Shown here in pieces: positions 43,250 through 46,950 of a stretch of 64,000 bases of DNA; position 1 is the first letter of the stretch; each line of letters opens with the position of its first letter. Source of the stretch: a candidate division NC10 bacterium CSP1-5 (lineage in GTDB: Bacteria > Methylomirabilota > Methylomirabilia > Methylomirabilales > CSP1-5); contig LDXR01000004.1 of the NCBI GenBank assembly GCA_001443495.1, positions 62,001 to 126,000 of the forward strand. The letters run 5' to 3'. The position numbers and the translations under genes are program-made. A model generated the notes under the pieces. The model was not told the origin of the DNA and ran no database searches. It saw nothing but the letters and a program-made list of their open reading frames with translations.

Positions 43250-43392
43250 CGGCTCGACTGGGCTCGCCGAAGTCCGATGACAAAGGGATCGACGGAAAAT
43301 TCCGCAACTTGCTGGTTCTGGTGCAGCAGCGCCCTCGGACCCTGAACTGTGAACCGTTAACTGTGAACTCGCTGTGCGGGAGGAGGTAAAGG

Positions 43393-43722
43393 ATGGTGGA
43401 GCCCACAAGCATCAGTCCGGCCGACGTCCGGGCACGTCTGCAGTCCGGGAGAGGGACGATACTCGTCTGCGCCTACGAGGACGAGGCCAAGTTCACACGG
43501 GCCCGGCTCGAAGGGGCGATATCGCTCCAGTCGCTTCAATCGAGGCTTCCGTCTCTTCCGAAGGAAACAGAGATCGTCTTTTATTGAGGCTGACCTGAGG
43601 ACGCAAGCGCTGTCGGTCGGGCAGCCGAGTACAGGGAAAAGGGATACGCGAACGCCAAGGTCCTTGCTGGAGGGATTGCCGCCTGGAAGGCGGCAGGCTA
43701 TCCGGTCTACCGTGATGGCTAA
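43393..43722 (+). CDS. Rhodanese-like protein with two in-frame TGA codons (putative selenoprotein)
   Basis: 109 codons, read through TGA at 43585-43587 (codon 65) and 43591-43593 (codon 67). The N-terminal half (ISPADVRARLQSG, ILVCAYEDEAKF, LEGAISLQSLQSRLP, ETEIVFY) and the C-terminal half (PEDASAVGRAAEYREKGY, KVLAGGIAAWKAAGYPV) are continuous rhodanese homology. The joint reads IVFY-U-G-U-PEDAS, where single-domain rhodaneses have FYCxCPxxAS, so both Cys positions are TGA. ATG 43393 follows GGAGGTAA. The alternative is a pseudogene, but no frameshift is needed. Confidence 0.8.
43609..43625 (+). promoter_or_regulatory. Candidate bacterial SECIS element of the rhodanese gene
   Basis: GCUGUC pairs with GGCAGC (one U-G) around the loop GGUCG (43615-43619). 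The loop begins 22 nt after the second TGA and 28 nt after the first, so it can serve both. Confidence 0.6.
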
Positions 43723-43934
43723 GTCTTGCGCTGGGGTTCACACACGGACGCTGGCGAAGACACCGGTAAACGCCCTCCTGGTATAGCGAAAGCTTGACTG
43801 CTCGGCACTGCGCTTGCTACACCCGCCCCAGGTAGTTCACAGTTCATGGTTCGCGGTTCACAAACAGCCGCCAGTAAGGATGCAACGCTTCGAGCTCGAC
43901 CGTGATCCAGAGCGACCCATACCCCTCCCGCTTT

Positions 43935-44016
43935 CGACTGTGAACAGTGAACGGTGAACCGTGAACGCTACTGCCGGTTTTGACTTTCAATCTGTGAACG
44001 GTGAACCGTGAACGCT
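43935..44016. repeat. GTGAACGGTGAACC-type tandem repeat
   Basis: Two blocks of three or four GTGAAC/GTGAACC units (near 43939-43967 and 43993-44015). Related single runs occur at 43338-43372, 43830-43862 and 40550-40590. The gap 43723-44019 is filled by these and holds no gene. Confidence 0.75.
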
Positions 44017-44019
44017 CCT

Positions 44020-44868
44020 ATGACACGGGTGGGCATTTTCTATCATGAAAGCTTCAGCCGGCGGAGCTATCTGACCGTCGGCCGGCGATTGGCCGATTTC
44101 CCTGCCGCCCTCGACGAGCTCTTGCAGGACGAGCGGTTCCGCCTCTACCGATGCTCCGAGGCTGACGATCGGCTCATCCTCCAGGTCCATCGTCCCGCGC
44201 TCATTCCGGAGGTAGAGGCGGACCCGCTGTGAAGCACCGCCAGGGCCTCGGTCGGAGGCGTCGTAGCGGCGGCAGAAAAGATCTGCGTCGGCGAGTTGGA
44301 TCGGGCGTTTGCCTTTATCGGTGCGGGCGGGCACCACGCGGGGGTGGATTTCTTCGGCGGCTACTGCTGTTTCAACGACGTCGCCATCGCCATCGCCCAC
44401 CTCCGGAACACCTACGGCGTCCGCCGGTTCGCCATCCTCGACACCGATGCCCACCATGGCGATGGGACGCGGGACATTGTCCAGGAGGACCCCGATGTCC
44501 TCCACGTCTGCATCTGCGGCATGAACTATGTCTCTCCGGACGGGACCAAGGTCGATGTCCCCGCCCCCTGGGGAGGCCGTGACCCGGACGAGGCGTATCT
44601 GAAGACGGCGGAGTCTGCCTTTGCCTCGAGGGTCCGGGACTTTCGGCCGGATCTCACCGTCTGGTACTTCGGCTTTGACGGGCACCGGGGAGACTACGGA
44701 GATATGGGACTTTCCCTTCGCTGCTTTGTGGGACTCGCCGATTTCATGGTTGGAGCAGCCCGGGATGCCTCAAGCGGCAAGCTCCTCACGGTTTTGGGAG
44801 GAGGCTCCCGCACCGACCTCGCCACAATGATCATCCCCCAGGTCATCCACCGCCTCGGCGCGGAATAA
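44020..44868 (+). CDS. Class II histone deacetylase-like protein with in-frame TGA (putative selenoprotein)
   Basis: 282 residues read through TGA at 44230-44232 (codon 71). Part one (VGIFYHESFSRRSYLTVGRRLADFP...LILQVHRPALIPEVEADPL) and part two (STARASVGGVVAAAEK...FAFIGAGGHHAGVDFFGGYCCFNDVAIAIAHL, LDTDAHHGDGTRDI, VCICGMNYVSPDG, DGHRGDYGDMG) are one arginase/deacetylase fold with the zinc ligands and the GHHA catalytic pair present. The TGA sits between them in the same frame, probably at a conserved Cys. ATG 44020; GTG 44008 is possible. Confidence 0.78.
44245..44259 (+). promoter_or_regulatory. Candidate bacterial SECIS element of the deacetylase gene
   Basis: GCCUC/GAGGC stem closing the loop GGUCG (44250-44254), 17 nt after the TGA. 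The loop is identical to that of the rhodanese gene. Confidence 0.65.
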
Positions 44869-44909: not shown

Positions 44910-45752
44910 TCACCGAGGGAGGTGGAGAGCGAGGCATTTGGCGGAGCCTCCGGCCTTGAGGAACTCGGAGAGGTCCAGCTCGACCACCTCAAAGCCTCGC
45001 CGCTCCAGCTCCTTGCTGAGCGGCCTGGACATCCCGCGGTGCAGGATCACACGCCGGTCGATCACGACGGCGTTGCAGCAGAATCGGAGCGCATCGGCCG
45101 TGGAGACGGGCACCGGGTCGGGGACGTTGGTCTCTATGACCTTCCACCCGTAGCGATCAAAGGCTCCGGGATACCAGAGGGCCGATGTGGCATCAAGGGG
45201 ACAAAAGCACGTATCGAGGTGGTAGAAGCGCTTGTCAACGAGCTCCAGGGGCAGGACCCGACGCCTCAGAATCTGTGCGAGCCGCTCATGCACTATGGCA
45301 TCCGAGCGGAATCGAAAGCCGAGGAACACAGTCTCGCCCACCGATAGCGCATCCCCTTCGCCTTCGAAGTTGAACTGTCTGGGCAGCGTCACCACGCGAT
45401 AGCCGCGCTGTCGGAAGTACCGCTCGAAGATCGCCTCTTCTCCACGGCGCTCGGGATGGCGGAAGTTCGTGCGGACGAACGTGTCGCCCGCCACCAGCCC
45501 CGCATTCGCCGTAAAGACCAGGTCGGGCAATCGCTTTACTGGCCGGACGAGCTTGATGGGCACCCGGAGCCTGCGCGTCAACAGGTCGTATAGGGCCTGC
45601 CACTGGCGGGCGGCCACGGGTTGAGTCACCTGCCTCGTGACCCTCATCCAGGGGTTGATCTCGTACGCGATGGTGTAGTGACGCGGGCGGCACATCAGGA
45701 GCGCCAGGGATGGGAGCGTGCCGTCTCTAGCGGGGCGATAACTTGAGCGCAT
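44910..45752 (-). CDS. Arginine dihydrolase/DDAH-like amidinohydrolase
   Basis: 280 residues of the guanidino-modifying superfamily. DLVFTANAGLVAG, FNFEGEGDALSVG, FYHLDTCFCPL (active-site His) and the C-terminal GGSAKCLALHL (nucleophilic Cys) are present, as in the N-terminal domain of cyanobacterial AgrE/ArgZ, which removes both guanidino nitrogens from arginine to give ornithine. ATG 45752 overlaps the next gene by 26 nt; ATG 45695 is also possible. Probably works with the downstream-named gene as a split AgrE. Confidence 0.75.
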   Translation of the reverse strand: MRSSYRPARDGTLPSLALLMCRPRHYTIAYEINPWMRVTRQVTQPVAARQWQALYDLLTRRLRVPIKLVRPVKRLPDLVFTANAGLVAGDTFVRTNFRHPERRGEEAIFERYFRQRGYRVVTLPRQFNFEGEGDALSVGETVFLGFRFRSDAIVHERLAQILRRRVLPLELVDKRFYHLDTCFCPLDATSALWYPGAFDRYGWKVIETNVPDPVPVSTADALRFCCNAVVIDRRVILHRGMSRPLSKELERRGFEVVELDLSEFLKAGGSAKCLALHLPR

Positions 45753-46950
45753 GGCAGAGTTCCCGCAGGAACGAGGCCGCGTCCGAGACGATGCCAATCC
45801 CCTGGAAGGTCCCGCGATCGGCGAGCTTTGTCACGACGGCCGGGTTGATGTCGACGCAGATGGTCTTGACCGTGGCCTGAAGCAGGTTCCCGGTGGCAAT
45901 CGCATGGAGCGTGGAGCCGATCATGAGGGCCAACCCCACCCCTTTGAGATGGCGGCGCATCTCATCCTGGGCTTTGAGCACATCGGTGATCACGTCCGGC
46001 AGGGGGCCATCGTCTCTGATGGAGCCGGCCAGGACGAACGGGATCCGGTGCCTGACGCAGGCGTGCATGATGCCCTTGGTCAAGACGCCCTGGCGGACTG
46101 CCTGGCGGATGCCTCCACAGGCGCGGATCGTGTTGATGGCGCGCATGTGATGGTCGTGGGTGTCCCGGACCGGACCCCTGCGATCGAGCGAGACGCCGAG
46201 GGAGGTCCCAAAGAGGGCTGACTCGATGTCATGGACTGCCAGCCCGTTGCCGCCAAAGAGCACATCGACATATTTCACCTCGATGAGCCGCTCCAGGTAC
46301 CGACCGCCTCCGGTATGGACGATGGCCGGGCCTCCAACGACGAGGATCTTTCGCCCGGCCTGCTTCGCGGACCGCATCGCCCCGGCGACGCCGTCGATGA
46401 GGAGGCCCTTAGGCTTCTCGGACGAGACCGCGCTTCCCATGAACTGAAAAACATCCTTGTGCCTCGACCGCTCGAGGGGGGTCACGCGGACGCCGGTCGT
46501 GCCGCAGGCGACGAGATTCCCTTTTCTGACGTGGGTCACCGGGACACACCAGGCCCGTGCGGTCCGGGGATCGATCACGATCCCACAGTCCATCTCGATG
46601 TTCTCCACCGACCGCCAACGCCCCTGATACCGCACGGCGGTGGGTAGATTCGTCGTGGAGTAGAAATCGGTGGGGAAGACGCCGTCCTGTCGCGCGCGGA
46701 CGAGCTGAACCTCGTGCAGGGTGAGGGGCGTGGCCCCCAACCGGGCCAGCCGTTTGAGGATGGCCTGGAGCTTTTGCTCGGACGTCGCACTGACCTTCAG
46801 GCGGGCGGTCGAGGGATCGGTCTTGCGTTTGCCGACGGCGATCTCGAGAATCTCGAAGGTCCCGTCGAGATCGATGATCTCATCCAGAATCTTCGGGAGG
46901 ATCAACGAATCGAGAATATGCCCACTGACCTGGACGGTTTCAGAGACCAT
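45727..46950 (-). CDS. TIGR00300/LOR-SDH-domain protein, ornithine cyclodeaminase-like
   Basis: 407 residues. N-terminal VSGHILDSLILPKILDEIIDLDGTFEILEIAVG, then ATPLTLHEVQLVRA, VACGTTGVRVTPLERSRH, ILVVGGPAIVHTGGGRYLERLI and LLQATVKTICVDINPAVVTKLADRG are family landmarks. This domain is the C-terminal half of AgrE/ArgZ and, in archaea, an ornithine cyclodeaminase producing proline. The ATG 46950 lies after a long structured leader; the gene precedes and overlaps the amidinohydrolase. Confidence 0.85.
   Translation of the reverse strand: MVSETVQVSGHILDSLILPKILDEIIDLDGTFEILEIAVGKRKTDPSTARLKVSATSEQKLQAILKRLARLGATPLTLHEVQLVRARQDGVFPTDFYSTTNLPTAVRYQGRWRSVENIEMDCGIVIDPRTARAWCVPVTHVRKGNLVACGTTGVRVTPLERSRHKDVFQFMGSAVSSEKPKGLLIDGVAGAMRSAKQAGRKILVVGGPAIVHTGGGRYLERLIEVKYVDVLFGGNGLAVHDIESALFGTSLGVSLDRRGPVRDTHDHHMRAINTIRACGGIRQAVRQGVLTKGIMHACVRHRIPFVLAGSIRDDGPLPDVITDVLKAQDEMRRHLKGVGLALMIGSTLHAIATGNLLQATVKTICVDINPAVVTKLADRGTFQGIGIVSDAASFLRELCHALKLSPR

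Follow-up and report, generated by a model that had tools for sequence, protein, structure and literature searches.

Hairpins with a common loop in a Methylomirabilota (NC10) genome: probably ordinary bacterial SECIS elements of a UxU rhodanese and of a new histone deacetylase-fold selenoprotein

Two neighbouring genes of an uncultured Methylomirabilota (NC10) bacterium probably encode selenoproteins, one a rhodanese with two selenocysteines (UxU) and the other a protein of the histone deacetylase (HDAC) fold. Each carries a hairpin just downstream of an in-frame TGA, and the two hairpins have the same five-base loop. We put the probability at roughly 0.87 that both are ordinary bacterial SECIS (bSECIS) elements whose loops match by coincidence. 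An HDAC-like fold has not been known for selenium, and the deacetylase-like selenoprotein is the main finding; taken alone, the loop match is nothing unusual. The features lie within a 64-kb stretch of DNA, which we call the window.

43393-43722, plus strand: predicted rhodanese-domain (PF00581) selenoprotein gene with two in-frame TGA codons, motif FYUGUP, Sec65 and Sec67
43585-43587, plus strand: first putative Sec TGA of the rhodanese gene (Cys in the congener G003), from codon reading in homologues
43591-43593, plus strand: second putative Sec TGA of the rhodanese gene, from codon reading in homologues
43609-43625, plus strand: candidate bSECIS hairpin of the rhodanese gene, GCTGTC-GGTCG-GGCAGC, 6 bp, loop GGUCG at 43615-43619
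44020-44868, plus strand: predicted HDAC-fold selenoprotein gene (PF00850; HDAC fold, Z 31.1; Cys/TGA pairing), motif DPLUSTARASVGG, Sec71
44230-44232, plus strand: putative Sec TGA of the HDAC-like gene, codon 71, from codon comparison with homologues
44245-44259, plus strand: candidate bSECIS hairpin of the HDAC-like gene, GCCTC-GGTCG-GAGGC, 5 bp, loop GGUCG at 44250-44254

By computational standards, a selenoprotein family is recognised by a TGA that lines up with a conserved Cys of homologous proteins and is found again in further genomes. Of 95 Methylomirabilota genomes, 17 carry a close homologue of the HDAC-like gene; codon 71 is TGA in 16 of these and Cys in one (G007). Outside the phylum, all ten homologues that were read (from Desulfoferrobacter, Syntrophobacteraceae, other deltaproteobacterial MAGs, an Archaeoglobales MAG and G115) have Cys at this codon. 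The tally of 16 TGA and 11 Cys includes no other residue, TAA and TAG were never seen at codon 71 among these homologues, and the TGA is retained at protein identities as low as 64%. In all 16 Sec members the Ser is followed by Val and STA by Arg; the 11 Cys members have mostly Ala (8/11) and Trp or Leu (11/11) at those positions, these being raw counts with no correction for phylogeny. The GTN codon of the Val supplies the GU of the loop in Sec members. This pattern suggests that the SECIS requirement has altered the protein next to Sec, from Trp to Arg and from Ala to Val.

The rhodanese gene encodes FYUGUP because an additional TGA sits six bases before the one at 43591-43593. Codon reading in 30 homologues found the second TGA in every one; the first position is U or C, with TGA alternating with Cys inside the genus. 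Across 15 homologues 98.9% of stem cells are paired, and a synonymous third-position pair in the stem reads UA in nine, CG in four and UG in two with no mismatch (Fisher p = 0.011). In the HDAC-like stem, covariation is weak and less clear. The short tail of the rhodanese gene has a dN/dS of 0.24–0.36, less low than that of the HDAC-like gene. The protein scores 53.4 bits against NF041203, below the curated cut-off of 115. It shares with that model (rhodanese_LYCAU, Sec rhodanese form 3, CxU) the rhodanese domain and a Sec at the second position of C-x-C, but the genus of the window has mostly UxU, with Sec at both positions. Read from sequence, the window protein belongs to a known group of Sec rhodaneses as a UxU variant, a form that the 2026 selenoprotein inventory does not give for rhodaneses. 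The closest relatives that carry a name are Methylomirabilota (NC10) MAGs. Double-Sec motifs of the forms UGU and UTU occur in two separate rhodanese groups of Methylomirabilota (L056, L062, L067). Dispersed GTGAAC-rich direct and inverted repeats, with copies of about 26 nt, lie at 43342-44019 of the window, where they flank the rhodanese gene and occupy the gap up to the HDAC-like gene.

The genome holds the machinery for Sec decoding. A tRNA-Sec was found at 74 bits, with anticodon TCA according to ARAGORN, and about 5 kb away lies a full-length SelB (379 bits) with a complete SECIS-binding domain. The SelB C-terminus matches the winged-helix domains of the solved SelB structures 2ply, 1wsu and 2pjp, and retains the RK...TRR motif common to E. 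coli SelB and 2ply. A Sec-type SelD is also present, and its own gene carries a TGA. SelB or tRNA-Sec was detected in 15 of the 16 genomes with the HDAC-like TGA; the exception (G023, 76% complete) has the TGA with neither of the two detected.

Re-reading of the sequence confirmed what the first-pass annotation had described, namely two hairpins with GGUCG loops starting 22 and 18 nt past the TGA codons of the rhodanese gene (43591-43593) and the HDAC-like gene. Measured from the first rhodanese TGA, the loop starts 28 nt away. These spacings, the 5-nt loops and the 6- and 5-bp stems fall within the bSECIS geometry (apical loop 16–37 nt past the UGA and 3–9 nt long, stem of 4–16 bp). The loop GGUCG and the energies of these simple hairpins (-8.3 and -7.9 kcal/mol) agree with the rule of a G in loop positions 1–2, mostly followed by G or U, and an MFE of -7.5 kcal/mol or below. 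RNA folding of short segments reproduced both GGUCG loops; the stand-alone MFE z-scores are unremarkable and uninformative, and Rfam at gathering thresholds gave no match within the 64-kb window. As in published bSECIS elements and the SECIS of E. coli fdhF, each hairpin comes right after the UGA, with the loop 16–37 nt off and a G followed by G or U early in the loop (PMC13188914; PMC8659212). They differ from these in that an equivalent of the bulged U17 of E. coli is not evident, and in that loop positions N1 and N2 are both G and therefore unpaired. The published rule for the loop core is G[G/U], usually GU (PMC13188914), equivalent to G23-U24 in the SECIS of E. coli (PMC8659212). Both hairpins appear to be true bSECIS elements.

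A hairpin by itself says little, because 436 of the 13,332 TGA triplets in six frames (3.3%) precede a hairpin that meets the bSECIS rules in our sample of 460 kb (17% of the genome: the 64-kb window plus 396 kb). The same abundance would suit a reading in which translation truly stops at the TGAs, with the genes being pseudogenes or ending there and the hairpins products of chance. We consider this extremely improbable, since the HDAC-like TGA stands at one codon in 16 genomes and is always paired with Cys, never replaced by another stop, and the 211 codons past it are under purifying selection (dN/dS of 0.08–0.13). Coding potential on both sides was found for 58 TGA triplets, five of them with a rule-meeting hairpin and four of these with a GU loop. 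Besides the reported pair, the coding-context matches comprise one GrdB-like selenoprotein (PF07355) and two apparent false positives in a non-coding frame; the FdhA hairpin narrowly fails the energy cut-off. The GrdB-like gene (G000:C4:43485, minus strand, in L092) has the motif LTPAUGLCNQ and an 8-bp SECIS-like hairpin. In the window, a Redoxin/TlpA-like frame at 1947-2744 on the plus strand has an in-frame TGA at 2418-2420 (WTHGUINSRNTIPQLV, a UxxS motif), with strong coding potential on both sides and a candidate SECIS whose loop is AGUU and whose stem has a mismatch.

Cys/TGA pairing, machinery and conservation, and not loop identity, strongly support Sec decoding in both genes. The machinery, the pairing, conservation and covariation are read directly from sequence; Sec insertion, the SelB contacts and the chemistry of Sec71 go beyond it and are inferred. 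A ribosome would reach the in-frame UGA of either gene, and SelB with Sec-tRNA would bind the hairpin just 3' of it at the apical loop, presumably reading chiefly the G-U core. Insertion of Sec at the UGA would then yield the UxU rhodanese and a histone deacetylase-fold selenoprotein with Sec71, predicted to keep the zinc ligands and to lack the catalytic Tyr. The single rhodanese hairpin probably serves both UGAs, since the distances from each to the loop are within the 16–37 nt range.

The first-pass annotation went further and took GGUCG to be a lineage-specific recognition loop for SelB, which would support Sec decoding independently and could be used to search the genome. The two genes do share the loop exactly. 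A strict scan of the 460-kb sample (stem of at least 5 bp, -7.5 kcal/mol or better) gave five TGA triplets with a GGUCG hairpin, two of them also in a coding context, against 0.02 expected (binomial p = 2e-4). This test was not blind, because both matches are the pair already described. A looser scan (at least 5 bp, without the energy cut-off) gave eight TGA-hairpin pairs with six distinct hairpins, and only the reported two are in a coding frame. GGUCG also occurs in the HDAC-like genes of G027, G029 and G032, from another family, so the loop is permitted but not required.

Comparison within the genus makes a dedicated GGUCG signal improbable. Five congeners, the window's species included, have both genes; the rhodanese loop is GGUCG in all five, but the HDAC-like loop is GGUCG in the window, CGUCG in G005 and G002, and CGUGG in G003 and G004. 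Identity over all five bases is thus limited to one of the five, the window's species, and is lost in the other four. Apart from GGUCG, the HDAC-like gene mostly has CGUCG or CGUGG, and the orthologous rhodanese loops beyond the genus comprise eight GGUCA, two GGGCA and one CGGCG. The constant part is G[G/U], usually GU, with the variation falling outside this core. One loop base per gene is a lineage-specific codon variant. Loop identity as independent support for decoding was overstated, because the first G of the HDAC-like loop comes from a TCG Ser codon in place of TCC, a change that no other species of the genus shares. As a genome-specific search pattern, GGUCG recovers two of the seven Sec sites examined. 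It misses FdhA (GGUCU, starting 19 nt past its TGA), the GrdB-like gene (CGUGG), SelD (CCGUG), a second rhodanese (CGGGU) and the redoxin candidate. A shared SelB preference remains plausible for the G[G/U] core, mostly GU, which was already published. We conclude that the five-base match is mostly coincidence within the allowed bSECIS consensus.

The HDAC-like protein matches the PF00850 histone deacetylase domain at 143 bits (cut-off 27.9). Its AlphaFold model (pLDDT 86, pTM 0.90; weak at residues 106–114) superposes on P. aeruginosa HDAH (5g0x) with Z 31.1 and an rmsd of 2.4 over 274 residues. The zinc-ligand positions D143, H145 and D220 and the His pair H105 and H106 are invariant in 24 sequences, as in the catalytic HDAC classes compared (I, IIb, IV and HDAH), but Ser263 (Ala in one sequence) aligns with the catalytic Tyr of HDAC6 after GGG. 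The family and HDAH have in common the fold, the His-His pair and the Asp-x-His and Asp zinc ligands. They differ in that GGGS replaces GGGY, in the invariant Cys/Sec at position 71 and the further invariant Cys of the HDAC-like family (C116, C117, C164 and C166), and in its distinct N-terminal motif YHxSFSRRSYLT. By sequence, Sec71 directly precedes the helix 74–89, which comes before the His pair.

Next to the HDAC pocket, Sec71 would most likely act as a version of the invariant family Cys with higher reactivity, and its chemistry may be either catalytic or that of a redox switch. A non-catalytic switch, in which Sec71 forms a selenenylsulfide with the neighbouring invariant C116, is possible but on balance doubtful. 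It draws on the four invariant Cys residues and on the GYCCFND stretch of the family, which aligns with the C153 region of HDAC8. Sec71 itself does not align by sequence with C102, and the structure model is weak close to the C116 stretch of interest. The precedent is HDAC8, in which a redox switch between C102 and C153 is reported to tune activity (PMC6174833). More speculative, and in our estimation unlikely, is that an HDAC-fold metallohydrolase swapped its catalytic Tyr for chemistry built on Sec (Cys elsewhere) beside the metal site. It would then be the first selenoenzyme of the HDAC/arginase fold and might work by redox or metal-selenolate chemistry instead of deacetylation.

Genes for a dimethylarginine-dimethylaminohydrolase-like (DDAH-like) protein and an ArgZ-like protein (arginine dihydrolase domain) adjoin the HDAC-like gene at 44910-46950 of the window, on the minus strand, and an RTC cyclase gene is a further neighbour. 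In the few other lineages checked, the neighbours include DHH, ABC transporter, U32 peptidase, radical SAM, AMP-ligase and creatininase genes, with no consistent genomic partner for the family among the lineages checked.

An HDAC-type selenoprotein is absent from the 119-family table of the 2026 inventory (PMC13188914), no NCBIfam model matches the HDAC-like protein, and our literature search found no published example, though an earlier mention is possible. According to its citation in that inventory, Deng et al. 2026 counted 63 selenoproteins in a Methylomirabilota MAG. The HDAC-like gene probably represents a new selenoprotein family. With 16 Sec and 11 Cys members read alongside each other, the contribution of Sec can be tested directly in this family, as can the function of these HDAC-like proteins that lack the catalytic Tyr.
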